Below are positions 4,689 to 36,210 of a DNA stretch of 64,000 nt, one piece after another. Both the position numbers and the translations under genes were made by a program. Numbering within the stretch: position 1 is the first letter of the stretch; every line of letters begins with the position of its first letter. The DNA is taken from contig NZ_CP013233.1 of assembly GCF_001584165.1 (NCBI RefSeq), forward strand, positions 124,001-188,000. Reading direction: 5' to 3'. Source of the stretch: Collimonas arenae. GTDB lineage: Bacteria > Pseudomonadota > Gammaproteobacteria > Burkholderiales > Burkholderiaceae_D. Below the pieces are notes generated by a model. It had not been told where the DNA came from. It was given only the letters and a program-made list of their open reading frames with translations, and made no database searches.

Positions 4689-4693
4689 TTTTC

Positions 4694-4753: not shown

Positions 4754-4756
4754 GTT

Positions 4757-4812: not shown

Positions 4813-4827
4813 TGTAGCCTTATCCAG

Positions 4828-4843: not shown

Positions 4844-4934
4844 CAAATTTAAGTCATTGATATTTATGAGGTTATTTCTTTATCTGGTGTCTTTTGAGAT
4901 CAACTGATGCGCAGGTGCAGGTCGACGACGGTGC

Positions 4935-4974
4935 GTTTTGCGTGAAATTGGTGCGCCGCACACTATTTCGGTGC
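4935..4974 (-). promoter_or_regulatory. Candidate NtrC-like sites upstream of the sigma-54 promoter
   Basis: The segment holds GCACC/GGTGC half-sites, for instance GCACACTATTTCGGTGC at 4958-4974 and a GGTGC half-site near 4948. They lie 120-155 bp upstream of the predicted start, the usual enhancer distance. The matches to the NtrC consensus are partial, so this is tentative. Confidence 0.3.
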
Positions 4975-4989
4975 GGCCCTTGCCAGAGA

Positions 4990-5634: not shown

Positions 5635-5645
5635 TTAATGTCTCC

Positions 5646-20921: not shown

Positions 20922-23054
20922 TTACTCTTGCGGTACGGGTGTCAATGCTGCAGTCAAATCGCCCATCGGCTTGCCGCCGTTGGCAACCAGCGCCTTGTCG
21001 CGCGCCGTAATGCCTGGCAAGACAGGCAACGCATAGCGGTGCGTGATGAAGCGCAGGATGGAGGCCGTGTCGTACTGGGAGTGATCAACAAAACCCTTCT
21101 TCGCGTACGGCGAAATCAGGATGGTCGGCAGACGTGTGCCTGGCCCCCAGCGGTCGCCTTTCGGCGGTGCAACGTGATCCCAGAAGCCGCCGTTTTCGTC
21201 GTAAGTCACGACGATCAGCATGTTCTTCCATTGCGGGCTGGCTTGCAGCTTGGCGATCACGTCGGCGATGTGGGCATCGCCGTCCGAGACGTTGGCGTAA
21301 CCGGGATGCTGGTTCAGGTTGCCTTGTGGCTTATAGAACGCAACCGGCGGCAACGTTCCTGCAGCAGCATCCTGCAGGAACGAGGCGTCGAAATCCTTCA
21401 GGTGGTTGCTGCGTTCGGTCGCGCCGGCGGCAGTCGCCGGATCGAAACGGCTGTAGTAGTTAAACGGCTGGTGATGTGGCTGGAACTGGATTTTGCCGCT
21501 ATAGATCACGCTGCGGCTGGCGTTCGGCGCGTCGGCCAATGCCGCATTCCAGGCGCCGGCGTACCAGGCCCAGTTGATACCCTTGGTGGTGAGCTGGTCG
21601 CCGATGGTGGTCTGGGTTTGCGTCGGCAAGGTGGTGGCCTTGCTTGGGTCGGCATAGGAGGCCACTGCAGCAGGGGTGTTGCCGCTAGGCTGGTAAGGCG
21701 GCTGCATCGTGTTGACCGCATAGAACATGCCGGCAGCATCCTTCGGCGTGATCGTGCTGTCCTTCAGATAGACCGGTGCACCGTTCAATACCGAGCTCGG
21801 ATTGCCGGTGCCCGGCGCCAGTCCGATCAGATTGCCATTAGCGTCCAGGTTGACGGCCGAGATGCTGTTTTTGGCTGGTGAGGTTGCCGCGTCGGCATTC
21901 GGATAAGTCGGTGCGCAGGCGCAGATCAGGTACTGGTGGGTCAGGAAAGAGCCGCCGAAAGTGCCCATGAAGAAGTTGTCGGCCAGCGTGTATTGCTTGG
22001 CGATGTTCCACAGCTTCATCTTGCTGCCGTCGTAGTAGCCCATGCTGAGGCCACCGGCGTCGGAATAAGCGGTGAACTTGTCGTTCTTGCCACCGTTGAT
22101 CTGCATCTGGTTGTTATAGAAACGGTGCACCAGGTCGCGCGTGATGACGGCCGACGACATGTAGATCGGGCTGTTGGTATCGTCGATCTGGAATGGTTTG
22201 TTCGGCAGATTGGCTGACTGCGCTTGGGTAATCACGGTGCTTTGACCTGCCAGCGTCATGCCGCCCCAGGTTGGGGGCAGGACCGGCAGGGTGCTGCCGT
22301 CGAAGTCCTTTTGCGGAACATAGGCGGAGGTCGAAGTCGGATTGACGCCCGGAATACCGTTGGCGCCCGGGAACAGGCCGTACAGATTGTCGAAGCCGCG
22401 GTTTTCGGCAAAGATCACGACGACGTTCTGGATGTTGTTCATGGCCAGCGCGCTTCCCAAGGCCTGACCCAAGTCAACGTCGCCGCCCTGTGCGATGGCA
22501 TTGGCGATCGCAGCGTTGATGGCAGCGGCTTCGGCCTTCAATTTGGCCTGGTCGGCGCTGCTCAGCTTGTTGATATCGGCCAGCAAGTTGGCTTCGGAAG
22601 TGCCGATCTTGGCTGCCAGCTTCTTGCTGGCATCGGCGAAATTACCGCCGTTGGCTTCCATCGCGGCAGCCAGCTCAGTCGAAATGGCGCTGACATAGCT
22701 GCTGCGACCGGCCGGTGCGCGGAACACCAGTTTCTGCGTGACGCTGCTGCCCTTGTCGCCTAATACTTCGTGACGGATGGCATTGGAGTCGATGGTTGCC
22801 ACTACCGCGCCTTGTCCCTTGAGCGAGTAGGAACCGTCGGCGCCGGTTTTGACTACCGGCGAGGTGGCGTCGCATGTCGCTTTCTTTACCGCATCCTCGA
22901 AGCAGACTTGTGCATTTTCGTAGTAGCTGCCGGTCACCTGGCCGCTGGTGACCGGGCCGTTTTCGCTAACTGTGCCACCGCCGCCACCGCCGCAAGCACT
23001 CAAGCCAGCGGATATTGCCACCGTTAATGGCAGCCATTTGAAATTCCCCTTCAT
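20922..23054 (-). CDS. Lipoprotein phosphoesterase (phospholipase C/acid phosphatase family), copy 1
   Basis: 710 residues. A lipoprotein signal peptide ends LSACGGGGGG, so the protein is anchored and exported. Residues 30-200 are a linker domain with a carboxypeptidase-regulatory-like start. Residues 205-705 are the PF04185 phosphoesterase domain: NVVVIFAENRGFDNLYGLFP (metal ligands E/N), DNFFMGTFGGSF, QHPGYANVSDGDAHI, and the C-terminal VVTYDENGGFWDHVAPP. The family hydrolyses phosphate esters such as phosphatidylcholine, AMP or phosphoproteins. It is divergent from a di-haem peroxidase gene, and the shared 180-bp gap holds a Pho-box-like repeat. GGGGAGGGG precedes the ATG. Confidence 0.9.
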   Translation of the reverse strand: MKGNFKWLPLTVAISAGLSACGGGGGGTVSENGPVTSGQVTGSYYENAQVCFEDAVKKATCDATSPVVKTGADGSYSLKGQGAVVATIDSNAIRHEVLGDKGSSVTQKLVFRAPAGRSSYVSAISTELAAAMEANGGNFADASKKLAAKIGTSEANLLADINKLSSADQAKLKAEAAAINAAIANAIAQGGDVDLGQALGSALAMNNIQNVVVIFAENRGFDNLYGLFPGANGIPGVNPTSTSAYVPQKDFDGSTLPVLPPTWGGMTLAGQSTVITQAQSANLPNKPFQIDDTNSPIYMSSAVITRDLVHRFYNNQMQINGGKNDKFTAYSDAGGLSMGYYDGSKMKLWNIAKQYTLADNFFMGTFGGSFLTHQYLICACAPTYPNADAATSPAKNSISAVNLDANGNLIGLAPGTGNPSSVLNGAPVYLKDSTITPKDAAGMFYAVNTMQPPYQPSGNTPAAVASYADPSKATTLPTQTQTTIGDQLTTKGINWAWYAGAWNAALADAPNASRSVIYSGKIQFQPHHQPFNYYSRFDPATAAGATERSNHLKDFDASFLQDAAAGTLPPVAFYKPQGNLNQHPGYANVSDGDAHIADVIAKLQASPQWKNMLIVVTYDENGGFWDHVAPPKGDRWGPGTRLPTILISPYAKKGFVDHSQYDTASILRFITHRYALPVLPGITARDKALVANGGKPMGDLTAALTPVPQE

Positions 23055-23153
23055 AACCCCTCCCCGGGTGTAAAAAGGGCAATCCTATGCTTCGAATATT
23101 TCAACTGTGTGAAATTAATGCCTATAGGTAGTATTTATTTTTTGTAAATGAGC

Positions 23154-23187
23154 GCGTCATCGTTCTGTCACAGAGTGGTGCTAGTCT
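23154..23187 (+). promoter_or_regulatory. Pho-box-like repeat and -10 upstream of peroxidase 1
   Basis: GCGTCAT, four bases, CTGTCAC (23154-23171): two seven-base direct repeats with the four-base spacing of a PhoB box (consensus CTGTCAT-N4-CTGTCAY, 5/7 and 7/7). Ten bases later comes TAGTCT as a -10. It points toward the peroxidase gene; it may also serve the divergent phosphoesterase. Confidence 0.55.
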
Positions 23188-23234
23188 TGCGCGGCATTTA
23201 TTCCTCCATGTCGTGCCATGTCTACTCCAATCCA

Positions 23235-24506
23235 ATGAAACCAGCGGTCACTGCATTCCTGATCGGCGCCGTTGCGCTCTTCCTCAACGCCTGCGGCCAA
23301 CGGTCGGCAGAGGCCAACCCGGCAGCAACCAGCCAACCTGCGAAGCCGGCCTATGTCGGCGCCACCTATGCGCCGTCATTGAAAAAGCAGCCGTCCGTGA
23401 CCGCCATGACTGATCTCGGCCGCATCATGTTCTCGGATCCATCGTTGTCGGCTTCGGGCAAGATGTCTTGCGCCACCTGCCACAGTCCCGAGCACGCGTT
23501 CGGTCCGCCGAACAACCTGGCAGTCCAGCTCGGCGGCAAGGACATGAAAACGCTGGGTACTCGTGCGGCGCCGTCATTGCGCTATATACAGAATGTGCCG
23601 GCCTTCACCGAGCACTTCTTCGATGACGATGGCGACGACAGCATCGATGCTGGCCCCACTGGCGGCCATAACTGGGATGGCCGCGCGCCATCGACCCACG
23701 ACCAGGCGCGGATTCCATTGTTGTCGGCGCACGAGATGGGCAATGCCGGTCCCGCCGAAGTGGTTGAGAAGCTGAAGAAAGCCGCGTATGCAGGGCAGTT
23801 CCGCCAGACCTTCGGCGAGGATATTTTCGATAAGCCGGAGCAGGCATTCAAATGGGCACTGATGGCGCTTGAGGTGTATCAGGAAAGTCCGGCCGAATTT
23901 TATCCATATAACAGCAAGTACGATGCTTTCCTGCGTGGGCAGACACAGCTCAGCAAGCAGGAATTGAACGGCTTGCGGTTGTTCAACGATCCCGCCAAGG
24001 GCAATTGTGCTTCCTGTCATATCAGCGGCATCGCGCCGAGCGGCGCCTTTCCGCAATTCACCGACTACGGCTTGATCGCCATCGGCGTGCCGCGTAACAA
24101 GCACATCCCGGCTAACGCCGATCCGAAATATTTCGACATGGGCCTGTGTGGGCCGGACCGCACCGACCTGAAGGAGAAAACGGAATATTGCGGCATGTTC
24201 AAGACGCCATCCTTGCGCAATGTCGCCATGCGCCAGGTGTTTTTCCATAATGGCGCTTTCGACAGCCTGGAAAAAGTGATGCAGTTCTACGTGCAACGCG
24301 ATACCCAGCCGCAGAAATGGTACCCGCGCAACAAGGATGGCAGCGTCGACAAGTTCGACGACTTGCCGGTGGCATATCGCGACAACGTCAATGTCGAAGC
24401 GCCGTTCGACCGCAAGCCCAGCGACCGGCCGGCACTGAATGATGCCGAGATCAAGGATGTGATCGCGTTCCTGAAGACACTCAACGACGGCTACACCAAG
24501 CAATAA
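23235..24506 (+). CDS. Di-haem cytochrome c peroxidase/MauG-family lipoprotein, copy 1
   Basis: 423 residues from the ATG at 23235; another possible start at 23208 adds nine residues. Lipoprotein-type leader (FLIGAVALFLNAC). Two c-type haem motifs, C79-x2-C82-H83 (CATCH) and C258-x2-C261-H262 (CASCH), define the bacterial di-haem peroxidase family. Further marks are FKTPSLRNVAMRQVFFHNGAF and PALNDAEIKDVIAFLKTL at the end. It uses H2O2 or high-valent haem chemistry in the periplasm; the partner substrate is unknown. Its arrangement beside a phosphoesterase is repeated at 32-36 kb. Confidence 0.92.
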   Translation: MKPAVTAFLIGAVALFLNACGQRSAEANPAATSQPAKPAYVGATYAPSLKKQPSVTAMTDLGRIMFSDPSLSASGKMSCATCHSPEHAFGPPNNLAVQLGGKDMKTLGTRAAPSLRYIQNVPAFTEHFFDDDGDDSIDAGPTGGHNWDGRAPSTHDQARIPLLSAHEMGNAGPAEVVEKLKKAAYAGQFRQTFGEDIFDKPEQAFKWALMALEVYQESPAEFYPYNSKYDAFLRGQTQLSKQELNGLRLFNDPAKGNCASCHISGIAPSGAFPQFTDYGLIAIGVPRNKHIPANADPKYFDMGLCGPDRTDLKEKTEYCGMFKTPSLRNVAMRQVFFHNGAFDSLEKVMQFYVQRDTQPQKWYPRNKDGSVDKFDDLPVAYRDNVNVEAPFDRKPSDRPALNDAEIKDVIAFLKTLNDGYTKQ

Positions 24507-24533
24507 AAAAGGCCCATGGGATCCATGGGCCTT
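24505..24533 (-). terminator. Intrinsic terminator of the aspartate decarboxylase gene
   Basis: AAGGCCCATGG pairs perfectly with CCATGGGCCTT (11 bp, three-base loop), and the minus strand continues as a T run. It overlaps the last codons of the convergent peroxidase gene and ends the minus-strand unit that stops at 24552. Confidence 0.85.
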
Positions 24534-24551
24534 GGGTTCTGGCAGAAGAGC

Positions 24552-26207
24552 TTATTTTTTGGCTTTCTTGCCCGCCTTCGCTTTTCCGCCGCTTGTCTTG
24601 GCGGCTGTCACGGCCTTGCTGCTGCCGCTGCCTTTCTCAAACTGCGCATAAAATTCTTCCGCCAGCTTGCGGATCGCGCGGCCGATGTTGGCGTAATCGT
24701 ATTCGTTGAGATTGGCCAGCGACACCCGCGCCGATGCATGCGCAGTGCCAAAGCCGCGACCCGGCAGCAGGATGACACCGGTTTCCTCTGCCAGCCTGAA
24801 CAGCGCTTCGTTCGGTTTCAGGCGCTTGACCATCCACTTGGCAAAAGCGGCGCTGTACATTTGCGTGGCCAGCGGTTCCAGGTCAAGCAGATGATAGTAG
24901 TTGACCGAATCGGGATCGACCGGCACCGGCAAGCCCAGCGCACGGTACAGCGCTTCCTTGCGGCGCAGGACGATGCGCTTCATCGATTTCTTGTAACTCT
25001 CCGGCTCATCCATTAGCGAGAACAGCGAGAACAGCACCATCTGCACCTGTACCGGTGTTGAGAGCCCGGCGGTATGGTTGAGCGCGACGGTACGGCTGTC
25101 GGCTACCAGGCGGTCGATGAATTTCAGCTTGCGCGGTTCGGTGGTGATCGAGTTGTAGCGCAGGTCGAGTTCCTTGCGGCGCGCTTCCGGCAGGGCAGCT
25201 ATCTTGGCGTCGAGGATGTTGTCTTCGTGGGTTGCAACCACGCCCATGCGCCAGCCGGTGGCGCCGAAATATTTCGAGAATGAATATACCAGGATCGTGT
25301 TGTACGGACACATCGCGAACAGCGATACGAAGTCGTCGGCGAAGGTGCCGTAGACATCGTCGGTGAGGATGATCAGATCCGGCCGCTTCTTGACGATCTC
25401 GGCGATGTAGGCCAGCGTTTCGTCGTTGATACGCACCGACGGCGGATTGCTGGGGTTGACCAGAAAGAAGGCCTTGACCTTGGGGTCGAGCAGCTTGTCG
25501 AGCTCCTGCTTGGTGAATTGCCAGTTGTTTTCCGGCGGAGCATCGATCATCAGCTCCACCAGCTGGTAGTCGTTCAGGTGCGGGATCTCGATGTAAGGTG
25601 TGAAGATCGGCATGCCGAGGGCGATGGTGTCGCCGGCCTTGATGAGGTGATTTTCGCGCAGGCTGTTGAAGATGTAGGTCATGGCGGCGGTGCCGCCTTC
25701 GACTGCATACATGTCGAATTTGCCGGAAAACGGGTGCTTGCCTACCATTTCGCGGTGGATGTAATGACCGACGATTTTTTCGCTGTGACGTAGCATGCGA
25801 TCCGGTACCGGGTAGTTGCAACCGAGGATGGCTTCGCACATTTCATAGATGAAATCGCCGGCGGACATGCCAAGCTGGTCGCGCACGTACGATACAGCGG
25901 CTTCGATGAAGCGGATGCCGGGGACGCCGGGACGGGATTTGGCGAATATTTCGAAGCGTGCTTCGATGCCGTCGCGTTGCGGGAAGCCGCCGACGTCTTC
26001 CATATAGATGTAAGAGCGTTCAGCTTCGGTCATGGCGAACAGGCCGAACTGGAAGAAGCCGTGACGCGGGGTGGTGGCGAGGAAATTGGGATTGCCGCGG
26101 CCGGCATTGAGCATTGAGCGGTCGCTCTTGGAGGCGACCTGGATGAGTGCATCTTTTAATTCGAACGGGCTTAACAGAGCGAGCTTTTCTGGGTTGCTGA
26201 AATCCAT
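24552..26207 (-). CDS. asdA: Bifunctional aspartate aminotransferase/L-aspartate 4-decarboxylase
   Basis: 551 residues, close to the known AsdA/AspD length. PLP enzyme that releases the beta-carboxyl of aspartate as CO2 and forms alanine. Schiff-base lysine K312 lies in YSFSKYFGATGWRMG. Other family marks are MLNAGRGNPNFLATTPRHGFFQFG near the start and NPSNPPSVRI at 251-260. The last 30 residues are a Lys/Ala-rich tail beyond the usual family end. The aspartate:alanine antiporter gene lies upstream, so together they can run the aspartate/alanine exchange cycle that consumes a proton per turn. GGAG precedes the ATG. A 0.5-kb repeat block separates the two genes. Confidence 0.95.
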   Translation of the reverse strand: MDFSNPEKLALLSPFELKDALIQVASKSDRSMLNAGRGNPNFLATTPRHGFFQFGLFAMTEAERSYIYMEDVGGFPQRDGIEARFEIFAKSRPGVPGIRFIEAAVSYVRDQLGMSAGDFIYEMCEAILGCNYPVPDRMLRHSEKIVGHYIHREMVGKHPFSGKFDMYAVEGGTAAMTYIFNSLRENHLIKAGDTIALGMPIFTPYIEIPHLNDYQLVELMIDAPPENNWQFTKQELDKLLDPKVKAFFLVNPSNPPSVRINDETLAYIAEIVKKRPDLIILTDDVYGTFADDFVSLFAMCPYNTILVYSFSKYFGATGWRMGVVATHEDNILDAKIAALPEARRKELDLRYNSITTEPRKLKFIDRLVADSRTVALNHTAGLSTPVQVQMVLFSLFSLMDEPESYKKSMKRIVLRRKEALYRALGLPVPVDPDSVNYYHLLDLEPLATQMYSAAFAKWMVKRLKPNEALFRLAEETGVILLPGRGFGTAHASARVSLANLNEYDYANIGRAIRKLAEEFYAQFEKGSGSSKAVTAAKTSGGKAKAGKKAKK

Positions 26208-26373
26208 TTCCGATACTCCTTATTCAAAATGTCGAGTCCGCAGTGGCGGGCTCGGGGTGAGGCGGCTAAGAATTCTTTGTTGTCTTCTTGCGGGCGGATG
26301 GCTGGCGTTCGGTTTCTGCTTGTCGTTTCTTGATGCGATTTCTATTTGGTGCCAATGGCTACGCGCACACATT

Positions 26374-26449
26374 AGTTAAATGGGGTCAGAGTTTTTTTTC
26401 GCGGCTTCTTGCGAAAATTACTCTGACCCCTTTTAACGGGCCACGGAGT
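26374..26449. repeat. 76-bp palindromic repeat, copy A (GGGGTCAGAG family)
   Basis: Runs from AGTTAAATGGGGTCAGAG to TTAACGGGCCACGGAGT. Inside, GGGGTCAGAGT pairs with ACTCTGACCCC around a TTTTTTTCGCGG...CGAAAATT core. A nearly identical copy lies at 26803-26878 in the same orientation. Confidence 0.9.
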
Positions 26450-26802
26450 AAGTGTGGTGGTGCATTCAGAATTTACGGCCGTCGTTACTTAATGCGGTCG
26501 GCGCTCCGTGGATACTAGCCGGGGGCGGCCCGGCAGCCGCTCACTTTCTTTGCTTCGCCAAAGAAAGTGAGCAAAGAAAGGCGATCGCACAGCCGTTGCC
26601 CGCCTTCGGCGGGTCCCCAAATGAGCCGTGCGCCAGTCGGATGGGACACATACTCGCTGCGCTCAAACATGTGTCCCATAATTCCCGACTGTCGCACGTC
26701 CCATTTGGCAACGTCAGCATGCGAAAAGTCAAAAGCAACGTCAAAGTCAACGTCAACGTCAAAAACAGCTGCAACTGCAACTTCAAAACCATAACCACCG
26801 GT
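26450..26802. repeat. Non-coding block of palindromes between the 76-bp repeats
   Basis: 353 bp without a believable gene. It holds a 14-bp perfect hairpin at 26539-26572 (TCACTTTCTTTG, loop CTTCGC, CAAAGAAAGTGA). A long imperfect hairpin follows at 26617-26708, with about 45-base arms from CCAAATGAG to CCCATTTGG. Then comes a low-complexity run of GTCAAC/GTCAAA units at 26727-26776. Short open frames here are by-products of the repeats. The layout suggests accumulated REP-type or other non-autonomous mobile sequences. Confidence 0.75.
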
Positions 26803-26878
26803 AGTTAAATGGGGTCAGAGTTTTTTTTCGCGGCCTTTTGCGAAAATTACTCTGACCCCTTTTAACGGGCCACGGAGT
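26803..26878. repeat. 76-bp palindromic repeat, copy B (GGGGTCAGAG family)
   Basis: Same sequence as copy A apart from a couple of bases in the central TTC/CTT segment. It ends seven bases before the aspT stop codon, so it lies in the 3' untranslated part of aspT. Confidence 0.9.
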
Positions 26879-26884
26879 TCATAT

Positions 26885-28570
26885 TCACACCAACGCTACA
26901 ATCAACGGCCCCAACAACGTCAGGAATACATTCGCCAGTGCGTACGTGATCGCAAACGGTACTGTTGGAATCGAATTTTCCGCCTTGTCCAGCACTTCGC
27001 CGAAAGCGGGGTTGGCGCTGCGGGAGCCGCTGAGGGCGCCGGCGAAGATGGCGGTGTTGTCGTAGCGCAGGATGTAGCGGCCGATCAGCATGGTCAGGAT
27101 CATCGGCAGGATCGTCACCACCACGCCGACGCCGAAGATCGTGAAACCTTGCTGCTTGACGGTTTGCACCGCCTGCAGGCCGGATGACAGGCCGACCACC
27201 ACCACGAAACCGGCCAAGCCCAGGTCTTTCAGAATCTGCACGGCGCCGGCCGGCATTTCACCGAATGTTTGATGCTTGGAGCGGAACCAGCCGAACAACA
27301 GACCGGAGAGCAGGGCGCCGCCGCCGCTGCCCAGCGTCAGCGGGATCGAGCCGACCTTGGCCACCAACAACCCGACCAGCAGGCCGACCACCAGGCCGGC
27401 GCCGAGGTAGACGAAATCGGTCTTGGCGCTCGGCACGATCACATAGCCGACGATACTTGCGACCCGCTTGACGTCTTGTTCGGCACCGTAGATGGACACC
27501 ACGTCACCCACCTGTACGATAGTCTCCGGCAGCATCGGCAATACTCGTCCCATGCGGCTGATCTGCACCACGAAAATGCCATGGCGCACGCCACCTGCAG
27601 TCTGGGTGCGGATTTCTTCAACGCTCTTGTTGTGGAATTCCTTGTTGCTCAGCACTACATCGCGGTGCTGCATGGTCAGCTCCATGCCTTCCACTGCATA
27701 CACTTCCTTGCCGAGAAATCCGGATGTGCTGACTACCGCTTCGCGCCGGCCGACTACCAGCACGATGTCATGCGGCTGCAGTTCCAGTTGTGGATTGACT
27801 TCGATCACCTGGCCACCGCGTTTGACGCGTTCGATGGTGACGGCAGTAGCCGGATCGAGATTCTCGACTTCCTCGACCGTGATCTTGCTCTGGGTGATTT
27901 CATACAGTCGGCCGACGAGTTCCGGCAGCGCCGCATGCTGGCCCGGTCCCAGCACCTTGACTCCGGCCTGCATCGCAGTCTCGGCCTTGATCGCGTCTTC
28001 GCGAATGCTGCGCCCCATCAGTTTCGGCAAGATGTTGACGCAGACGATGATCGCACCGAATGAGCCGAATACATAGGTCACCGCGTAGCCGACGGCGACG
28101 TTGCCTTGCAGGCGCGCCACCTCGGCCGCATCCAGCCCAAGCTTGGTGATGGCATCGCCGGCGGTGCCGATGATCGCCGACTGCGTCAGGCCGCCGGCGG
28201 CGACACCCGCCGCCAGGCCCTTGTCGAGGCCAAACAGCTTGGCCATGATCACCACCGTCGCCAAACCGGTCAGCGCCAGGATCGCCGCCAGGATGATTTC
28301 CCGGATCGACTGCTTGCCAAGGGAGTTGAAGAATTGCGGTCCGCTTTCGTAGCCGACCGCATAAATGAACAGCGCGAATAACACCGCCTTGACGCCGGGA
28401 TCGATGTGTACCCCGACCTGGCTCACCAGCACCGCCACCAACAACGAACCGGCGACGCCGCCCAATTGGAATTTCCCGAATTTGATCTTGCCGATTGCGT
28501 AACCGACCGCCAGCGATAAAAACAGTGCTATTTCAGGGGATTTCTTGAATAACTCGTGCAGCCATTCCAT
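26885..28570 (-). CDS. aspT: Aspartate:alanine antiporter AspT
   Basis: 561 residues. AAEx-family transporter with two membrane halves around a cytoplasmic region. The first half includes GYAIGKIKFGKFQLGGVAGSLLVAVLV and GVAAGGLTQSAIIGTAGDA. Two TrkA-C-like domains follow (about 205-290 and 295-380). The second half has LTLGSGGGALLSGLLFGWFRS and FAGALSGSRSANPAFG. The paired G/S-rich motifs are diagnostic. It exchanges aspartate(-) for alanine, generating membrane potential when coupled to AsdA. The start at 28570 has AAAGGA eight bases upstream; the ATG at 28579 is too close to that site. Confidence 0.93.
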   Translation of the reverse strand: MEWLHELFKKSPEIALFLSLAVGYAIGKIKFGKFQLGGVAGSLLVAVLVSQVGVHIDPGVKAVLFALFIYAVGYESGPQFFNSLGKQSIREIILAAILALTGLATVVIMAKLFGLDKGLAAGVAAGGLTQSAIIGTAGDAITKLGLDAAEVARLQGNVAVGYAVTYVFGSFGAIIVCVNILPKLMGRSIREDAIKAETAMQAGVKVLGPGQHAALPELVGRLYEITQSKITVEEVENLDPATAVTIERVKRGGQVIEVNPQLELQPHDIVLVVGRREAVVSTSGFLGKEVYAVEGMELTMQHRDVVLSNKEFHNKSVEEIRTQTAGGVRHGIFVVQISRMGRVLPMLPETIVQVGDVVSIYGAEQDVKRVASIVGYVIVPSAKTDFVYLGAGLVVGLLVGLLVAKVGSIPLTLGSGGGALLSGLLFGWFRSKHQTFGEMPAGAVQILKDLGLAGFVVVVGLSSGLQAVQTVKQQGFTIFGVGVVVTILPMILTMLIGRYILRYDNTAIFAGALSGSRSANPAFGEVLDKAENSIPTVPFAITYALANVFLTLLGPLIVALV

Positions 28571-28931
28571 AACGAACATCCTTTCATGACGAGACTTCCG
28601 GATTGTTCAACGAACCAGCGTGTCGCGACCTGGCCGGCCGATGCGAGCGGGTTTGCAAGCATTGGATGCCCGCATGGCAGGTTCATGGTGCAAAAAATTA
28701 TCTAGGCAAGTTGCCAAAAAGAATCGTCATGATAGCAGAATCACCATTGTCGAAATTAACAAATTGGAATTTTTATTGGAATCTGCTAGGAGCTGTGGAT
28801 ATTCACTCCGGATACGCGAACCTGCAGCGGGCATTGCAGGCCACGGTGTTACGAGGCGGCGAAATATGCATTGCCGGATCATATCCTTGTCAACGGCGCC
28901 CCCTGACCGCCGCAGCAGGTCGGTGGCTGGA
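28571..28931. other. Intergenic region upstream of aspT, no gene seen
   Basis: 361 bp with lower G+C in the middle (about 28680-28800). It must hold the aspT promoter; a TTGACA on the minus strand (28889-28894) with CATATT 19 bases on is a weak candidate. A six-pair CCTGCA/TGCAGG hairpin lies near 28822-28841. No ribosome site with a convincing frame is present. Confidence 0.5.
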
Positions 28932-29561
28932 TTAGGCTGGCAGCATATCCTCTGCGGCGGTCTGTTGCCAGGCGTCCAGCTCCTGTACGCGGCCGAACCA
29001 GGCTTGCAGATGTTCGTAGCGGTTCAGCGATACGCCCCCCGGTTCCGCCGCCATCAAGGGCGCGGCGATGGCCAGGTCAGCCAGGGTCAGGTTGTTTCCC
29101 GATACCCACTGACGGCGCGCCATGTGGCCATCCAGCACGCCTGCATAGGATTCCAGGTCGACCATGCCACGCTTCAATTCGACCGGGTCAGGCCGGCCGG
29201 CGCCGATCAGGCCCTTGATGAAATTTTCCCAGTAAAAAATGCCGATCGCCGGCGCCAGATGCTGGGCCGACCAGAACATCCAGCGGTTGACGTCGGCGCG
29301 CGCCCGCAGTTCAGTTGGATAGACGGTCTGGCCCGGGGTCTTGTCGGCCAGGTATTGCATGATTGCGCAGGATTCCCAGAGTGTGAAATCGCCATCTACC
29401 AGTACCGGGATTTTTTCGTTTGGATTGATGGTCAGCAGGTGCTTGCGCTGCTCCGCGCTGGAGAGGTCAACCAGCACCAGGTCGACCTGCTGCTTGAGAT
29501 GATGGGCGGTCATGATGGCGCGGCGGGCATTGAATGAGATTGGGTGATGATAGAGGCGCAT
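28932..29561 (-). CDS. Glutathione S-transferase family protein
   Basis: 209 residues. Thioredoxin-like N-domain (MRLYHHPISFNARRAIMTAHHL, NPNEKIPVLVDGDF, then WESCAIMQYLADK). The helical C-domain contains GNNLTLADLAIAAPL. The S/N-A-R-R sequence in the first helix takes the place of the catalytic Tyr/Ser of classical GSTs. GGAG precedes the ATG. It lies 85 bp downstream of a WYL regulator on the same strand and may be its target. Confidence 0.92.
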   Translation of the reverse strand: MRLYHHPISFNARRAIMTAHHLKQQVDLVLVDLSSAEQRKHLLTINPNEKIPVLVDGDFTLWESCAIMQYLADKTPGQTVYPTELRARADVNRWMFWSAQHLAPAIGIFYWENFIKGLIGAGRPDPVELKRGMVDLESYAGVLDGHMARRQWVSGNNLTLADLAIAAPLMAAEPGGVSLNRYEHLQAWFGRVQELDAWQQTAAEDMLPA

Positions 29562-29646
29562 GATGATTTTCTCCGGTTGTTGTGATGCGGTGAAATCATC
29601 TTAGTCCGGGTTGCTGACAGCTAATGTCAGTAGTCTTTTGCTAGGC

Positions 29647-30348
29647 TTAGCTGTCCAACAACTGGTTTTCCTGGCGCCAGGCTTGCAGCAGCACGCTGCG
29701 TTGTTGCGGATAACGCTCTTTGGTGACGGTCAGGAGGCCGATCCGGTCGCAGCGGAAGTGACGGAAACTGGCGCGCAGCTCGCACCAGGCGACGACCAGG
29801 CGCTTGCCTTCGAAAAACGCCAGTGCGATCGGCCAGATCAAGCGCTCGCTGGCTTTACCGTTCTCATCGCGATAGCTGATGCTGATTTTGTGCTGGCGCC
29901 GGATTGCTTCGCGAATCGGCCCGAGCGTAATGCTGCTGAGGGGCTCCGCCTGGTAGCTGGCCGCCCACAGACCCATGTTGGCCATGTTGTCGCGCAGATC
30001 GGCCGGCGAAGCGGTAGCGATCTTGCTGAGTGCATTGGCGGCGGCCTGGCTCAAGCCCGCGTCGCCTTGTTGCTGGACCCAGCGAGCACCCAGCACCAAC
30101 GCTTCCAGTTCATCCTCGTTGAACATGAGGGGCGGCAGGAAAAAGCCGGAGCGCAGCACGTAGCCAAGACCTGCCTCACCTTCCACCGGCGCGCCCAGCT
30201 CGATCAGGGTTTGCATGTCGCGGTAGATGGTGCGCACCGAGACCGCCAGATCCTCGGCCAGCCGCGCCGCCGTGACCGGGCGCCGGTGGCCGCGCAGTGC
30301 GTCCATCAGCATGAACAACCGTCCGGTACGGCTTGCCGCTTGTGCCAA
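29647..30348 (-). CDS. YafY-type regulator (HTH + WYL domain), second copy
   Basis: 233 residues. HTH_11 at about 8-60 (GRLFMLMDALRGHRRPVTAARLAEDLAVSVRTIYRDMQTL). A short GYVLRSGFFLPPLMFNEDELEALVLG linker follows, then the WYL domain (about 135-215, with IWPIALAFFEGKRLVVAWCELR). It is a shorter relative of the regulator at 6617. Both have an enzyme gene nearby; here that is the GST downstream. Confidence 0.9.
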   Translation of the reverse strand: MAQAASRTGRLFMLMDALRGHRRPVTAARLAEDLAVSVRTIYRDMQTLIELGAPVEGEAGLGYVLRSGFFLPPLMFNEDELEALVLGARWVQQQGDAGLSQAAANALSKIATASPADLRDNMANMGLWAASYQAEPLSSITLGPIREAIRRQHKISISYRDENGKASERLIWPIALAFFEGKRLVVAWCELRASFRHFRCDRIGLLTVTKERYPQQRSVLLQAWRQENQLLDS

Positions 30349-30380
30349 CGCCAGTCTCCTCGCCTAAGTTGCGACGCCGC

Positions 30381-31526
30381 TTATTTGGTCACCGTCAGCA
30401 GGGTTTGCTGGCCGTTCCGGAAAGTGTAGATCGACAGCGTGCCGTTGCGGATATCGCCGTTCTTGTCGAAGGCGATCTTGCCGGTGACGCCGGTGTGCTG
30501 GATCTTGGCCAGCGCCGGCAGGTATGTTTTCGGATCGACCGAATTGGCCTTCTGCATGGCGTCGGCAATGGTCATCACTGCATCGTAGGTGTACGGCGCG
30601 TACTGCACGATATCGGTCTGGTATTTTTTCTTGTAGGCGGCTTTGAAGGCGTCCAGCGGTGCATTGTCCTCGACACCGCCGGCGATTGCGCAATATACGT
30701 TGTCGTCGACCAGGCCTTCACCGGCCAGACGCGGCAGGGCTGAGGTGCAGATCGCGTCGCCGCCCATGAACTTGGCGTTGATGCCGAGCTGGCGGATCTG
30801 GCGCAGCATGGCGCCGGCGCTAGCGTCGATGCCGCCGAAGAAAATCAGGTCTGGCTTCTTGGCCTTGACTGCGGTCAGGATGGCGCTGAAATCGATGGCG
30901 CGGTCGCTGGTGTACTGGGTGGCGACGATCTCGACGCCATTGGCTTTGGCGTCCTTGGCGAACTCGGTCGCCAATCCCTGGCCGTAGGCAGTACGGTCAT
31001 CAATCACGGCAACCCGTTTGGCGTGCAGGGTCTTGGCGGCGTAGCGTCCCATCACGGCGCCCAGCTGGCTGTCGTTGGCGACCACGCGGAAAGTGGTGTT
31101 GAAGCCTTGTTGAGTATATTTGGCACTGGTGGCCGAAGGCGAAATTTGCGGGATGCCGGCATCGTAGTAGATCTTCGAGGCAGGGATCGAGGTACCCGAT
31201 TGCAGGTGGCCGATCACTGCCGCCACCTTGGCGTCGACCAGCTTCTGCGCTACCGAGGTGGCTTGTTTCGGATCGCTGGCGTCGTCTTCAGCCTGCAACA
31301 CGAACTTGATCTTTTTGCCATCGATGACAATACCCTTGGCGTTCAGGTCGTCGATTGCCATGCGCGCGCCGTTCTCATTGTCCTTTCCGACATGGGCGAC
31401 CGGGCCGGTAATCGGGCCGACGTGGGCAATCCTGACTACTTGCTCCTGCGGCTGTGCATGGGCGGTAGAGGCCACCACTGCGGCTACGGCCAGGGTAAGT
31501 GCGCTCATCTTGGCATTGATCTGCAT
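30381..31526 (-). CDS. Periplasmic binding protein for branched-chain amino acids (LivJ/LivK type), stand-alone
   Basis: 381 residues from the ATG at 31526, with GGAG nine bases upstream; a longer frame to 31718 lacks a signal at its start. Signal peptide about 1-24 (ALTLAVAAVVASTAHA). The Leu/Ile/Val-binding fold follows with VRIAHVGPITGPVAHVGKDNENG, VAAVIGHLQSGTSIPAS and QISPSATSAKYT. No permease or ATPase genes are adjacent, so it either shares a transporter encoded elsewhere or acts as a sensor partner. Confidence 0.93.
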   Translation of the reverse strand: MQINAKMSALTLAVAAVVASTAHAQPQEQVVRIAHVGPITGPVAHVGKDNENGARMAIDDLNAKGIVIDGKKIKFVLQAEDDASDPKQATSVAQKLVDAKVAAVIGHLQSGTSIPASKIYYDAGIPQISPSATSAKYTQQGFNTTFRVVANDSQLGAVMGRYAAKTLHAKRVAVIDDRTAYGQGLATEFAKDAKANGVEIVATQYTSDRAIDFSAILTAVKAKKPDLIFFGGIDASAGAMLRQIRQLGINAKFMGGDAICTSALPRLAGEGLVDDNVYCAIAGGVEDNAPLDAFKAAYKKKYQTDIVQYAPYTYDAVMTIADAMQKANSVDPKTYLPALAKIQHTGVTGKIAFDKNGDIRNGTLSIYTFRNGQQTLLTVTK

Positions 31527-31588
31527 CTGTTTTCTCCGGAATTCGATGTGAAGTTCCGCAATTATCCCAGTCTCCCGGCAACTGCGCT

Positions 31589-32071
31589 CTATTGGTTTTG
31601 CGGGTTTTTTGTTGCAGTGGCGATGCCGTTCCAGGATGTGCCGCCGCATTTCCCGGTCTGAGTCAATAGCCAGCCCTGCAACTGCTTGTCGATCACCAGC
31701 GGATCGCTGCTGAAGCACTCCCCCTTGGGCGCCGACTTGTTTTGCCCGATCGACACAAACAACGGCCCCTTGGGCTCGACAATCGGCTCGCTGCTGCGCA
31801 CTTTCCCAGAACCCAGGTCGACGTTGCAGTCGTAGCGGCGGCCGGAAGTGTCCGCAGTGACGATGCCGACCATGCCATGATTCATCGGATAGACATTCTC
31901 GACAAAAATTGTGTCGCCCCTGGGGTGTTTCTGCAAGCAGGCATTGGCGGCCTGCATGACATCCTTGTCGCGCAACATGCCGGCGACCGTCATCGAAATG
32001 TCGTCGTCTGCCGAGGCGTTGCCTGAGGCCAGTACGGCACTAAGCAAAAAGAGGATAGGAAAGATTTTCAT
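31589..32071 (-). CDS. Secreted protein of unknown function
   Basis: 160 residues. Signal peptide about 1-21 (ILFLLSAVLASGNASA). The mature part has four cysteines that could form two disulfides, and contains GDTIFVENVYPMNHGMVGIVTAD. The AAGGG site before the ATG supports the start. No family recognised. It is followed on the same strand by the amino acid-binding protein gene 62 bp away from its stop, but in the order binding-protein-downstream. Confidence 0.65.
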   Translation of the reverse strand: MKIFPILFLLSAVLASGNASADDDISMTVAGMLRDKDVMQAANACLQKHPRGDTIFVENVYPMNHGMVGIVTADTSGRRYDCNVDLGSGKVRSSEPIVEPKGPLFVSIGQNKSAPKGECFSSDPLVIDKQLQGWLLTQTGKCGGTSWNGIATATKNPQNQ

Positions 32072-32159
32072 GACGACCCTTGAGTTTACGAACGCAACAC
32101 ACTAAACGACCTGGCGCAATGGATGGCTGCCTCTAATATATCCGGCAAGCCACAGATTG

Positions 32160-32193
32160 CTGACATCACACTGTCATATTCCTTTGCAACAAT
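32160..32193 (+). promoter_or_regulatory. Pho-box repeat and -10 upstream of phosphoesterase 2
   Basis: CTGACATCACACTGTCAT (32160-32177) is two CTGTCAT repeats with the four-base PhoB spacing, 13 of 14 positions matching. Ten bases further is AACAAT as a -10. The gene start is 32281. Confidence 0.7.
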
Positions 32194-32280
32194 AAAAGAT
32201 TAGTTTAGATTCATGCTGCTTGCATCTGTTTGCACGCATGGAGACAGACCTTTATTGAAATCCAACAACAGGATAATTCC

Positions 32281-34707
32281 ATGAAACTTCGTTCATTGGC
32301 GCTGGCATGCGCAACGCTAGTCTATCTGAGTGGTTGCGGCGGTGGTGGCGGCAGTTCGATCGGCACAGCACCGGCCACGGTAAATGGCGTCGCGGCCAGC
32401 GGCAAGGCACTGGTTGGCGTAACAGTCACCATCACCGACAGCAGCGGCCAGAATGTGCAGACCGCAGTGACCGACGTCAACGGCAAATTCTCCATTCCAC
32501 TCAAGGGCACAGCGCCCTTCATCCTGACCGCGCCATTCAACGATGCCGACGGTAGCGCCGCAACCTTGTCGGCCGTGATCAATCCGAGCGCAGCCCAGTC
32601 GGCGGCGGGCAGCACCGTGCAAGCCAACCTGAATCCCCTGACTTCGCTAGTCACGCAGCGCGTGCTGGGGCTGGTCCCGAGCGGTAGCCCGAGCGCCGCG
32701 CAAATCAGCGCCGCGAAGATCAGTTCTGCAAGCATTGCGCAAGCGGTGACCGATGTCGGTACACCGTTGCAGCCGCTGTTCACGGCGCTCGGCGTGCCGG
32801 CTGCTGAAACCAGCGATCCGATTGGCACTACTGCTTATCAGGCCAATTCCAGCGATCCGCTCGATAACCTGTTCGACATTACCCGTTTCAATGTGCACAG
32901 CGGTCAGATTGCCGTCGGCACCGATGCCAACCGCGCCGTGCTGACCATCCCGCTGAGCGGCAGCGTATCCGGCAGCTTGCCGAGCGCCGCGATCCAATCA
33001 GTGATGGCGTTGAACAACGGCCCGACCACCACGCCGATCCAGAACGTGATCGTGGTCGTTGGCGAAAACCAGACATTCGACGCCGTATTTGGCGCCTATC
33101 AGCCGCCGCAAGGCCAGACAGTAAAGAATCTGCTGTCGCAAGGCATCATCAATGCCGATGGCACACCGGGACCGAACTTCAGCCTGGCGCTGCAAAACCA
33201 GGGGGCAACGCAGACCGCGTATACGATCACGCCGACCCGTTCCACCGCATACGCCACGCTGCCGCAACCGACCGCCATCGGCGAACTGATTCCGCCGACT
33301 TTCCAGGACCCGGGCGGCGTACCGGATAGCCGCTTCCCGGCGAACCTGCCGAACGGCCCGTTCCAGATCACCAAGTACGTCCCTTACGGCACCGCCACTA
33401 CCGCGCAGACTGGCGATCCGGTACATCGCTTCTTCCAGATGTGGCAGCAGACCGGCGGCGACAACAGCAAGCTCGACATGTTTACTTGGGTCGCCGATAC
33501 TGTCGGCCAGGGTGGCGACACCAAGGGCATCACGCCGAGCAATCCAGGCCAGGGCGGCGAGTTGATGGGCTTTGTCAATATGGTCAGCGGCGATGCGCCG
33601 TTCTTCAAGTCGCTGGCGCAGCAATATGCGCTAAGCGACAACTATCACCAAGGCATCATGGGCGGCACCGGCGCCAACTTCTTCAATATCGCCACCGGCG
33701 ATCTGCCGTATTTCAATAGCGGTGGCGCGGTTGCAGTGCCGCCGGCCAACCAGATCGAGAATCCGAATCCGATGGCGCAGACGGCGAATTTCTATTCGCA
33801 GGACGGTTACCAGGGCGGCTCCTACGTCAATTGTTCCGATGCGACCCAGCCGGGTGTCGGCGCGATTCTGAATTTCCTCGGCAGCAAAAAGGTCAAGAGC
33901 AACTGCGACGCCGGCAAGTATTACCTGGTCAATAACTACAATCCAGGTTACGACATGAACGGCAACGTCCAGCCGATCGGTCCTAACAATTACAACTACC
34001 CGCCACAAACCGTACCGACCATCGCCGAAGGGCTGGCCAAGAAGAGCGTTGCCTGGAAGTGGTACACCGGCGGCCGCGAAGCCGCGGACGTGACTGCAGA
34101 TGCAGCGGCTTTCGGCTTTCCGGTGGCTGTCGCCCAGATTGCTCAGTACAACGCCATCGGCGATCCATTGGTGGCATCCAGCAATGTCATGACGACTGCA
34201 CTGAAATCGAACCTGGCCGGTCTCACCACGTTCTATAGCGATATCGCCAAGGGCACGTTGCCGGCAGTTTCGTTCGTGGTGCCGAAGAACCTCGACAGCG
34301 GCCACCCGGGCTACTCGGCGCCGGCCCGCTACGAAGCCTTCCTGCAAGACCTGATCGCTAAGGTCAAGGCCAATCCGACGCTGTGGGCACACACTGCGAT
34401 CCTGGTCACCACCGACGAAGGCGGCGGCCATTTCGATACCGGCTACATCCAGAACCTGGACTTCTTCGGCAACGGCCCACGGATTCCATTCCTGGTGGTA
34501 TCGCCGTATGCCCGAACCGGCTTTATCGACCACACCTATTACGACCACTCGTCGATGCTGAAATTCATCGAGCGCAACTGGCGCCTGCCACCGCTGTCGC
34601 CGCGCAGCCGTGACAACCTGCCGAACCCGGTCAGCGTCGCCGCCGACCAGTACCGCCCGGTGAACACCACCTCGATCGGCGACCTGATGGCGATGTTCAA
34701 CTTCTAA
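32281..34707 (+). CDS. Lipoprotein phosphoesterase (phospholipase C/acid phosphatase family), copy 2
   Basis: 808 residues from the ATG at 32281 with AGGA upstream. Lipobox LSGCGGGGG. An N-terminal region (about 30-120) carries a carboxypeptidase-regulatory-like repeat (GKALVGVTVTITDSSGQ). The PF04185 domain runs from about 250 to 800: NVIVVVGENQTFDAVFGAY, DNYHQGIMGGTGANFF, GHPGYSAPARYEAFLQDLI, VTTDEGGGHFDTGYIQ, and SPYARTGFIDHTYYDHSSMLKFIE. It is about 100 residues longer than copy 1 and clearly divergent. A di-haem peroxidase gene follows in the same orientation, with a palindromic repeat between. Confidence 0.9.
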   Translation: MKLRSLALACATLVYLSGCGGGGGSSIGTAPATVNGVAASGKALVGVTVTITDSSGQNVQTAVTDVNGKFSIPLKGTAPFILTAPFNDADGSAATLSAVINPSAAQSAAGSTVQANLNPLTSLVTQRVLGLVPSGSPSAAQISAAKISSASIAQAVTDVGTPLQPLFTALGVPAAETSDPIGTTAYQANSSDPLDNLFDITRFNVHSGQIAVGTDANRAVLTIPLSGSVSGSLPSAAIQSVMALNNGPTTTPIQNVIVVVGENQTFDAVFGAYQPPQGQTVKNLLSQGIINADGTPGPNFSLALQNQGATQTAYTITPTRSTAYATLPQPTAIGELIPPTFQDPGGVPDSRFPANLPNGPFQITKYVPYGTATTAQTGDPVHRFFQMWQQTGGDNSKLDMFTWVADTVGQGGDTKGITPSNPGQGGELMGFVNMVSGDAPFFKSLAQQYALSDNYHQGIMGGTGANFFNIATGDLPYFNSGGAVAVPPANQIENPNPMAQTANFYSQDGYQGGSYVNCSDATQPGVGAILNFLGSKKVKSNCDAGKYYLVNNYNPGYDMNGNVQPIGPNNYNYPPQTVPTIAEGLAKKSVAWKWYTGGREAADVTADAAAFGFPVAVAQIAQYNAIGDPLVASSNVMTTALKSNLAGLTTFYSDIAKGTLPAVSFVVPKNLDSGHPGYSAPARYEAFLQDLIAKVKANPTLWAHTAILVTTDEGGGHFDTGYIQNLDFFGNGPRIPFLVVSPYARTGFIDHTYYDHSSMLKFIERNWRLPPLSPRSRDNLPNPVSVAADQYRPVNTTSIGDLMAMFNF

Positions 34708-34713
34708 ACCCCT

Positions 34714-34773
34714 TTATTTGGGGTCAGAGTCGAATATGTCGCTACGGCTATATTTGACTCTGACCCCAATTAA
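34714..34773. repeat. GGGGTCAGAG-family palindrome between phosphoesterase 2 and peroxidase 2
   Basis: TTGGGGTCAGAGTC (34718-34731) pairs perfectly with GACTCTGACCCCAA (34756-34769). The inner AATATGTCGCTACGGCTATATT can pair further. It shares its stem core with the 76-bp repeats at 26 kb. It starts six bases after the phosphoesterase stop and could stop or attenuate read-through to the peroxidase gene. Confidence 0.85.
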
Positions 34774-34854
34774 AATGCTGGGGATGTCGCAGAGATTGCT
34801 GTCGTTCACGTTGCGCGAGTGCCAGCAACAACACAGATTTGAAATGGATTCGAT

Positions 34855-36210
34855 TTGTTGAGCTTCAATCAAGGTCGGTTGCTGGATTACCAATGGGGTG
34901 CCGGACTGGTGGCTCTGGTCAGCGTGGTGCTGCTGGCTGGTTGCCACGATGGGGATACGCCTGCGCGCGCCGCAGCTAAGGCCGGTCCGGCCAGCGTCGC
35001 GGCGGCGCCTGCTGCCGCTTCCGCTCCTGCTGACAAGAAGCCTTCGCTGAAAATGTGGGTGCGTTATCCGGAACCGCCGGCGACATTGAGTGCCGCCGCT
35101 ACATTAGGCAAGCAATTGTTTTTTGATGCGTCGTTGTCGGCTTCCGGCAAGATGTCCTGCGCTACCTGTCATAGCCCCGATCATGCTTATGGACCGCCGA
35201 ATGGACTCGCGGTGCAGCTGGGCGGCGCCGACATGCAACGGCAAGGTACACGCGGGGTGCCGTCGCTGCGCTACCTCGGTTTCACACCGAAATTCACGCG
35301 CCATTACTATGTGCCCGGGCCAGATGAAACCGAAGATGAAGGGCCGACCGGCGGCTTTACTCATGATGGCGCGGTCGATTCGCTGCACGAGCAGGCGCTG
35401 ATTCCGCTACTCAATCCGAATGAAATGGCGAATGCCAATCCGGCCGAGATAGCTGCCAAGCTGCAGAAGACCAGTTATGTCGAACAGTTCCGGCAAGTGT
35501 ATGGCGCCGGCATTTTCGATCATCCCGAGGCAGCGGTGGAAAAAGCCACGCTGGCGCTGGAAGCGTTCCAGACTGAAGACCCGAGCTTCCATCCGTACAC
35601 CAGCAAATTCGATGCGGCGATGGCCGGCAATGCCGATTTCACTCCGGCTGAATTGCGCGGCTACGGCCTGTTCAACAATCCGAACAAGGGCAATTGCGCC
35701 AAGTGCCACGTCGATACCCCGGGGCCGGGCGGCCGGCCGGCGCAGTTCACCGATTTCGGTTTCCAGGCATTGGGTGTGCCGCGCAATCCGGAGATCGCCG
35801 CGAATCGCAATCCGAAGTATTTCGATCTCGGCATTTGCGGCCCGGACCGCAAGGACATGGCGAAGGAAAGCGAATTCTGCGGCATGTTCAAGTCACCGAC
35901 CTTGCGTAATGTCGCCACGCGCGGCGCGTTCTTTCACAACGGCCGCTTCCATACGCTGGAAGACATGCTGCATTTCTATGTCGAGCGCGATACCGATCCG
36001 GCCAAGTGGTACCCGAAGGTCAAAGGTAAAGTGGCCAAGTTCGACGATCTGCCGCCACGCTACCGCGCCAATATCGATACGCTGGATGCGCCGCTCAACC
36101 GCAAGACAGGCGACAAGCCCGCCTTGAACGATGAAGAAATCGGCGACCTGATCGCCTTCCTGAAAACCCTCAACGACGGCTATTCGGCCAAGTCCGGCGC
36201 TGCGCGTTAG
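34855..36210 (+). CDS. Di-haem cytochrome c peroxidase/MauG-family lipoprotein, copy 2
   Basis: 451 residues from a TTG at 34855; no in-frame ATG precedes the signal, so the exact start is unsure. Lipoprotein leader GAGLVALVSVVLLAGC, then an Ala/Pro-rich linker. Haem motifs C102-x2-C105-H106 (CATCH) and C281-x2-C284-H285 (CAKCH). The C-terminal LRNVATRGAFFHNGRF and PALNDEEIGDLIAFLKTLNDGY parallel copy 1 closely. It is a paralogue of the gene at 23235 and again sits beside a phosphoesterase. Its stop overlaps by four bases the end of the convergent gene at 36207. Confidence 0.9.
   Translation: MLSFNQGRLLDYQWGAGLVALVSVVLLAGCHDGDTPARAAAKAGPASVAAAPAAASAPADKKPSLKMWVRYPEPPATLSAAATLGKQLFFDASLSASGKMSCATCHSPDHAYGPPNGLAVQLGGADMQRQGTRGVPSLRYLGFTPKFTRHYYVPGPDETEDEGPTGGFTHDGAVDSLHEQALIPLLNPNEMANANPAEIAAKLQKTSYVEQFRQVYGAGIFDHPEAAVEKATLALEAFQTEDPSFHPYTSKFDAAMAGNADFTPAELRGYGLFNNPNKGNCAKCHVDTPGPGGRPAQFTDFGFQALGVPRNPEIAANRNPKYFDLGICGPDRKDMAKESEFCGMFKSPTLRNVATRGAFFHNGRFHTLEDMLHFYVERDTDPAKWYPKVKGKVAKFDDLPPRYRANIDTLDAPLNRKTGDKPALNDEEIGDLIAFLKTLNDGYSAKSGAAR

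Follow-up and report, generated by a model that had tools for sequence, protein, structure and literature searches.

Why would a gene for an exported phosphatase lie beside a gene for a di-haem peroxidase, and do so more than once in the same genome? The question is raised by a 64,000-nucleotide stretch of the Collimonas arenae genome (the window, G000:C1:124001-188000 of a 4.72-Mb single-contig genome), which carries two such pairs, PE1/MG1 and PE2/MG2. A first-pass annotation had described them as two modules, each with one PF04185 phosphoesterase lipoprotein and one di-haem lipoprotein of the CCP/MauG family, and the Pfam scores agree: 302 and 181.5 bits for PE1 and PE2 with PF04185 (cut-off 23), and 126.3 and 132.6 bits for MG1 and MG2 with PF03150 (cut-off 25.6). 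Judged from its sequence, the pair is a real, conserved two-gene module, a variant of published pairings that adds a further (third) phosphatase family to them. We propose, at a probability of about 0.45, that the module is PhoB-controlled and that its di-haem enzyme oxidises the partner phosphatase, making or keeping it active.

Two gene pairs and the class of their peroxidases

The four genes of the window are the following.

20922..23054, minus strand: PE1, acid phosphatase-like phosphoesterase lipoprotein, partner 1 (PF04185; TIGR03397, acid_phos_Burk)
23235..24506, plus strand: MG1, BthA-like di-haem peroxidase lipoprotein, partner 1 (PF03150)
32281..34707, plus strand: PE2, PF04185 phosphoesterase lipoprotein, partner 2
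34855..36210, plus strand: MG2, BthA-like di-haem peroxidase lipoprotein, partner 2 (PF03150)

PE1 and MG1 are divergent and PE2 and MG2 are tandem, and the pairs are paralogous, as had been claimed, with 52% identity between the peroxidases and 31% between the phosphoesterases. PE1 scores 746.4 bits with the acid phosphatase model TIGR03397, above its curated cut-off of 362.75, which PE2 misses (164.3 bits); PE2 is thus classed as a PF04185 protein only. A lipobox-like Cys, judged by eye, is present at the N-termini of all four proteins (LSAC with Cys21 in PE1, LSGC in PE2). Both CCP_MauG proteins contain the two CXXCH haem motifs expected of the BthA class (CATCH at 23469 and CASCH at 24006 in MG1, CATCH at 35158 and CAKCH at 35695 in MG2). 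MG1 likely starts at 23235, the listed ATG at 23148 falling inside the promoter region, and a PE2 start at ATG 32281 is more likely than one at TTG 32230.

The best match of MG1 in the PDB is BthA (6nx0, 2.8e-80), and the BthA entries 6nx0 and 6v59 stand far above MauG; the best match of MG2 is also BthA (5.1e-78), which is the sole PDB match below 1e-50 for either protein. In a residue alignment of 82 relatives, including MG1, MG2 and the peroxidase MG3 of a third pair, the Tyr ligand of the 6c (six-coordinate) haem of BthA (Tyr463) is Tyr in 81 of 82 with one gap and is present in MG1, MG2 and MG3, the C-terminal pair Cys415/Cys430 is kept in 82/82 and 81/82, and all 82 have the catalytic Gln, Pro and Glu. 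The position of BthA Lys444, which replaces a Ca site, is occupied by Arg in 78 relatives (MG1-3 among them), Lys in two and His in one, with one gap; the K444R variant of BthA is active (PMC6405878). Ser257 of BthA, at the position of the bridging Trp93 in MauG, is replaced by Trp in MG1 and MG3 and by His in MG2, and the 82 relatives have Trp (63), Arg (15), His (3) or Gln (1) there. Because Ser257 is not matched, we class the MG proteins, on alignment evidence, as relatives of BthA and not as BthA itself. MauG proper was rejected (TIGR03791, 95.8 and 85.4 bits for MG1 and MG2 against a cut-off of 443.85). The scores are also below the cut-off for MbnH, a di-haem enzyme that modifies its partner protein MbnP (TIGR04039, 102.2 and 92.8 bits against 362.85).

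The invariant catalytic residues would also suit an ordinary Pho-regulon peroxidase, which clears periplasmic H2O2 during phosphate starvation and protects the phosphatase or the envelope without modifying the phosphatase; BthA is indeed efficient in H2O2 turnover when an artificial donor is supplied (PMC6405878). Such an enzyme leaves unexplained the repeated pairing with two unrelated phosphatase families and the way in which a Cys-Ala-Cys motif tracks partnership (both described below), and the genes of BthA and of its phosphatase neighbour phosA both go up under anaerobic growth (PMC6405878). We consider an ordinary peroxidase rather unlikely.

Conservation of the pairing and types of partner

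Three of the four PF03150 genes in this genome adjoin one of about six PF04185 genes. Chance neighbourhood was rejected, its probability being about 0.8% per gene if the six PF04185 genes were placed randomly. The third pair (PE3/MG3) lies near G000:C1 275.3-278.9 kb; its phosphoesterase (G000:C1:275254-276791, L283:5147-6954) shows PF04185 in two frames and has long matches in relatives, which suggests that the gene is interrupted or mis-sequenced in this assembly. The fourth PF03150 gene (L009) is outside the matches of the three-paralogue alignment.

The neighbourhood check proposed with the first-pass annotation came out in favour of a pairing conserved outside this genome. An initial tblastn survey missed short or divergent PF04185 partners that Pfam scans caught, and the survey was redone with more queries. 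Among 79 loci of named genomes (from the best 80 of 285 relatives, a partner being counted within 1.3 kb), 53 have a PF04185 neighbour (37 divergent and 16 tandem), one has PF00149, 18 have neither and seven lie at a contig edge. The paired genera include Collimonas, Cupriavidus, Chromobacterium, Herbaspirillum, Paraburkholderia, Glaciimonas, Rhodanobacter and Inquilinus. Since the named loci are biased toward high similarity to the query, we added a sample of 145 genomes of the same family, 53 of which have relatives (own genome included). Here, by the same 1.3-kb rule, the 89 relatives outside the own genome divide into 41 with PF04185, seven with PF00149, 34 with neither and seven at edges; six of the 41 rest on weak tblastn matches of 58-75 bits, and the two of these six that were scanned were confirmed at 33.6 and 35.2 bits. 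The enzyme is rarer in wider samples, being found in 14/80 genomes of the order at E<=1e-50 and in 7/143 genomes of the class at E<=1e-60 (own genome included in both). Rhizobium accounts for 68 of 100 plasmid records with a match, and in all three Rhizobium plasmid regions that were read a divergent acid phosphatase adjoins the peroxidase. The pairing is found in Beta-, Gamma- and Alphaproteobacteria, either tandem or divergent.

By their names, many of the hosts belong to soil- or plant-associated genera. This, together with the lipoprotein-like N-termini of all four window proteins, would suit a sequential action on organic phosphorus, in which the peroxidase oxidises phenolic or humic matter and releases phosphate esters for the phosphatase. 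We regard this as quite improbable, given that the substrates studied for MauG and BthA are H2O2 or a protein.

A tree was built from 197 relatives and an outgroup (254 rows built, 198 distinct; rows were dropped if they had one CXXCH motif or none, or were shorter than 300 residues, as was one further row under 330 residues, and BthA itself is outside the tree). One clade of 124 rows (support 98) holds all 103 rows with a PF04185 partner, together with 19 partnerless rows and two with PF00149. This distribution bears on the possibility that the two genes are co-regulated only, being neighbours since both are useful at low phosphate, with no functional contact between their products. The variable gene order would fit such an arrangement, as would lineages that keep one gene alone (the phosphatases of L326 and L327, and the 19 partnerless peroxidases); against it, most rows of a single peroxidase clade have retained a PF04185 partner, of one subtype or another, and we hold co-regulation alone to be improbable.

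Eleven of the 13 rows partnered by PF00149 form a separate clade (support 100), in tandem with PF00149 phosphatases. Two phosphatases of this kind, in L155 and L145, read GDYHY, GNHE, NHH and GHVH and so match the purple acid phosphatase motifs GDxxY, GNHE, xxNHH and GHxH; the PF00149 score in L155 is 40.5 bits, and a PDB search with the BthA-type partner phosphatase gave no match. L155 matches BthA with 433 bits, MG1 with 274 and a PF04185-paired relative from B. cenocepacia with 243, so that the L155 group is close to BthA by score, which fits the "purple-acid phosphatase" named as the partner of BthA (PMC6405878). In L155 (2364-5116), the phosphatase and BthA-like genes overlap by four bases, which suggests translational coupling. 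At two loci of the PF04185-linked clade (L050:5757-9191 and L258:3977-7251), a PF00149-like gene lies upstream instead, with 22.5 and 21.0 bits against a cut-off of 21.5, suggesting partner exchange.

Promoter architecture of the pairs

The first-pass annotation had also placed a Pho-type 7-4-7 direct repeat upstream of each pair and, at a spacing of exactly ten bases, a -10; these elements are found as described.

23154..23171, plus strand: Pho-box-like 7-4-7 repeat facing MG1, 2 mismatches, at the same place in orthologous pairs
23182..23187, plus strand: -10-like TAGTCT, exactly 10 nt after the MG1 box
32160..32177, plus strand: Pho-box-like 7-4-7 repeat upstream of PE2, 1 mismatch, with similar sites in orthologues
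32188..32193, plus strand: -10-like AACAAT, exactly 10 nt after the PE2 box

The PE2 box is the only match that good among the forward-strand genome sites listed. Mismatch counting gave no enrichment, with 14 matches in the window at <=3 mismatches against 12.3 expected, and 859 in the genome against 873 for the reversed pattern; we therefore relied on position and conservation. Position weights for the box and the -10 were set by hand from consensus sequences and are unfitted to these data. A box score of at least 11 is reached in 38/54 pair regions and in 12/224 intergenic regions taken from these loci as controls (Fisher p ~1e-23; this and the other promoter p-values treat related sequences as independent and hence overstate the significance). 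We then combined the box with a -10 at offset 10, setting the threshold at the 95% point of 359 controls, which by construction pass at 5%. The combined test used 182 of the 198 rows, the rest being arranged otherwise or having regions shorter than 150 bases, and the signal is present in 75/102 phosphatase-paired regions versus 7/80 unpaired relatives (p ~1e-19).

By type of pair, the signal is found in 41/44 divergent PE1, 7/9 tandem PE2, 6/6 divergent PE3, 6/10 tandem short PF04185, 4/7 tandem PE1-like and 2/4 L152-type pairs, in 8/9 BthA-like PF00149 pairs, and in 0/2 other PF00149 pairs and 0/2 of two single types. Relatives without a phosphatase give 2/39 in a porin-linked clade (described below) and 5/41 in the others. 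Offset 10 beats offsets 8, 9, 11 and 12 in seven of the eight paired groups with at least four members; the BthA-like PF00149 group passes at those offsets in 0, 1, 0 and 4 of 9. In this group the Pho signal depends on the combined score, since by the box alone 1/9 reach 11. Mean region length is 279 bases for controls, about 332-370 for paired types (630 for PE3) and about 435 for unpaired relatives, which makes the unpaired relatives the fairer length comparison. Of the 44 divergent PE1 pairs, 39 carry the signal toward the peroxidase and 20 toward the phosphatase (18 carry both), and three carry neither. The third pair scores 12.7 facing its phosphatase (box alone, 6.7).

As a positive control, the box and -10 layout of the pairs was also seen upstream of one of the two own-genome PstS loci (15.3, with TAGAGT ten bases on); the second has no upstream site scoring at least 10. 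A PhoB-like regulator about 4 kb from the first PstS locus scores 269 bits and the genome best 288, both under the strict cut-off of 296. A box with a -10 at fixed spacing recurs in orthologous pairs, as expected for a Pho regulon, and the two-gene modules are probably PhoB-controlled; binding of PhoB and induction are what we infer from this architecture.

Four side observations were made in the own genome. Near the PhoB-like gene (G000:C1:1863774-1864699; L301, L303), the PstS model matches in two overlapping pieces in different frames, and an interrupted reading frame is possible. A Pho-box-like site scoring 17.3 lies on the opposite strand before an unpaired PF04185 gene (L001, upstream of 1132; G000:C1 ~1254 kb). 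A further PF04185 gene without peroxidase pairing is split across two frames (G000:C1:37941-38965; L006, L007). The gap between PE2 and MG2 holds an inverted repeat (34720..34767) with perfect 12-bp arms, the sole exact copy in the genome.

Possible oxidation of the phosphatase and comparison with known systems

PE1 aligns with AcpA (2d1g) through its EN, Ser369 and DE regions, which we take to be catalytic sites, and PE2 aligns with it through the EN and C-terminal parts. A cysteine pair lies close to the predicted nucleophile of PE1.

21915..21923, minus strand: codons of Cys378-Ala-Cys380 of PE1, 9 and 11 residues past the predicted nucleophile Ser369

Cys-Ala-Cys is present in 52/54 partnered TIGR03397-type phosphatases, and the other two are out-of-frame reads, giving 52/52 in frame. 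Of 23 unpartnered rows (no peroxidase match within the 1.5-kb flanks), 19 form one clade without Cys-Ala-Cys, three keep both Cys and one is out of frame; three of the 19 retain the first Cys. The three that keep both are L324, with a peroxidase relative at a distance of about 9 kb, as well as L326 and L327, whose genomes have none at E<=1e-50. A first phosphatase tree was midpoint-rooted and included the three out-of-frame rows; in the final tree these rows (two partnered, one unpartnered) were dropped and the root was placed on PE3 and L152. There the 19 unpartnered rows (support 100) stand beside seven partnered ones (support 95), with weak deeper branches (33, 58), which suggests that Cys-Ala-Cys was lost, rather than lately gained, in the unpartnered clade. 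When partnered TIGR03397-type phosphatases were screened for residues peculiar to them, Trp included, nothing but the Cys pair came up.

Each pair may be a phosphate-scavenging module, in which an exported, membrane-anchored phosphatase shares its compartment with a BthA-class di-haem enzyme dedicated to it. As phosphate drops, PhoB would occupy the box and both genes would be expressed. The di-haem enzyme would then react with H2O2 to reach a high-valent iron state and oxidise its partner, either at a side chain near the active site or at a metal centre, and this oxidation would render or keep the phosphatase active. In PE1, Cys-Ala-Cys would be the leading candidate for the oxidised side chain. 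The genes, their pairing, their residues and the promoter architecture are read directly in the DNA; physical contact and partner oxidation are steps that we infer.

Several findings weigh against this proposal. Partners were not detected for 19 of the 124 rows in the phosphatase clade, and none of the 40 rows in a sister clade (support 95) lies next to a phosphatase gene. In 22 of 28 sister-clade rows with at least 3.2 kb of downstream sequence, a porin, an FMN-binding protein and ApbE follow, as in L255, and in 6/28 none does; these neighbours look like a different, flavin-linked use, and the enzyme type therefore works in other settings too. (The L255 locus, 1873-5755, is itself a sister-clade di-haem locus without a phosphatase neighbour.) The promoter signal is present in only 1/9 Rhizobium/Inquilinus-type pairs, and the scores of unpaired relatives are a little higher than those of controls (medians 3.8 and 5.2 versus 2.6; p 6e-3 and 5e-4), perhaps due to their longer regions. 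In the window, the signal scores 19.2 toward MG1 and a weak 8.8 toward PE1, so that direct PhoB control of PE1 is a weaker claim. Three relatives retain Cys-Ala-Cys without an adjacent peroxidase, its loss is a single event, and it is absent from PE2, PE3 and the other subtypes, which have other conserved Cys or none nearby. Because of the single event and the differing subtypes, Cys-Ala-Cys as the peroxidase target of PE1 is a lead, not proof. Finally, BthA by itself is a good H2O2 peroxidase (PMC6405878).

The first-pass annotation had interpreted the recurrent pairing as a functional link under phosphate starvation and knew of no described system of this kind. The link gains from the pairing outside this genome in varied gene orders and from the Pho boxes tied to it; the claim of novelty falls, as two related pairings are already in print (PMC6405878; PMC8115612, PMC8812569). 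BthA of Burkholderia thailandensis is always found beside phosA, a putative purple-acid phosphatase, and its oxidation of the phosphatase partner was called conceivable (PMC6405878). The window pairs resemble this system in the Tyr-His ligation of the 6c haem, the C-terminal Cys pair, the Lys (here Arg) replacing the Ca site, and the adjacent exported putative phosphatase. They differ in that the partners in the BthA-like clade are PF00149 and those in the window PF04185, and in having Trp (MG1, MG3) or His (MG2) for Ser257; the induction reported for BthA is anaerobic, and the passages of PMC6405878 on BthA and phosA neither mention Pho boxes nor give the gene context of BthB. Searches made mostly without subscription journals, and excluding the supplement of PMC6405878, found no report of PF04185 in such pairs, of Pho boxes on BthA-type pairs or of Cys-Ala-Cys, nor did they list, outside Flavobacterium, a low-phosphate report that names such pairs.

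In Flavobacterium johnsoniae, PhoX (Fjoh_2478) is encoded in an operon with the MauG-like Fjoh_2477 (PMC8115612, PMC8812569), and at low phosphate the FC values printed in Table 1 of PMC8115612 are 9.58 for Fjoh_2477 and 12.50 for Fjoh_2478. Expression of phoX by itself in P. putida gave no detectable activity, for which the authors offered two explanations, incomplete expression or the absent MauG-like step (PMC8812569). The likeness lies in an outer-membrane phosphatase whose operon includes a PF03150 MauG-like gene, in the strong induction of both when phosphate is depleted, and in the maturation raised by the authors; the phosphatase family (PF05787) is unrelated and the phylum is another.

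More tentatively, BthA/MauG-like enzymes may serve generally to mature secreted phosphatases by oxidation, in three unrelated families (PF04185, the purple-acid type of PF00149 and PhoX). Each family would have gained such a helper under phosphate-starvation control, and its members would work only once H2O2 had driven the oxidation of a side chain or of the iron in the active site. PMC6405878 leaves the physiological role of BthA open, and PMC8812569, in its passages on PhoX, only raises a possible role for the MauG-like neighbour. The low-phosphate promoter that the pairs share and the phosphatase that recurs next door point to phosphate starvation as the condition and to the neighbouring phosphatase as the candidate substrate, and the module offers testable predictions on the open function of BthA-class enzymes. 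If the proposal is true, some phosphatases expressed alone in a foreign host would seem inactive for want of their peroxidase, which would affect how soil organic-phosphorus enzymes are counted and used.

The remaining known systems are more distant. MG1 and MG2 share the CCP_MauG di-haem family with MauG, and MG1 and MG3 keep the Trp93 equivalent, but MG1 and MG2 fall far below the model cut-off for MauG of methylamine dehydrogenase. MbnH and MbnP likewise combine a di-haem enzyme with a partner protein, yet MG1 and MG2 are below the TIGR04039 cut-off. On the phosphatase side, PE1 and PE2 resemble AcpA and the PF04185 phospholipases C in their alignment to 2d1g, and differ from them in their extra N-terminal regions, their lipobox, their peroxidase partner and, in PE1, Cys-Ala-Cys.

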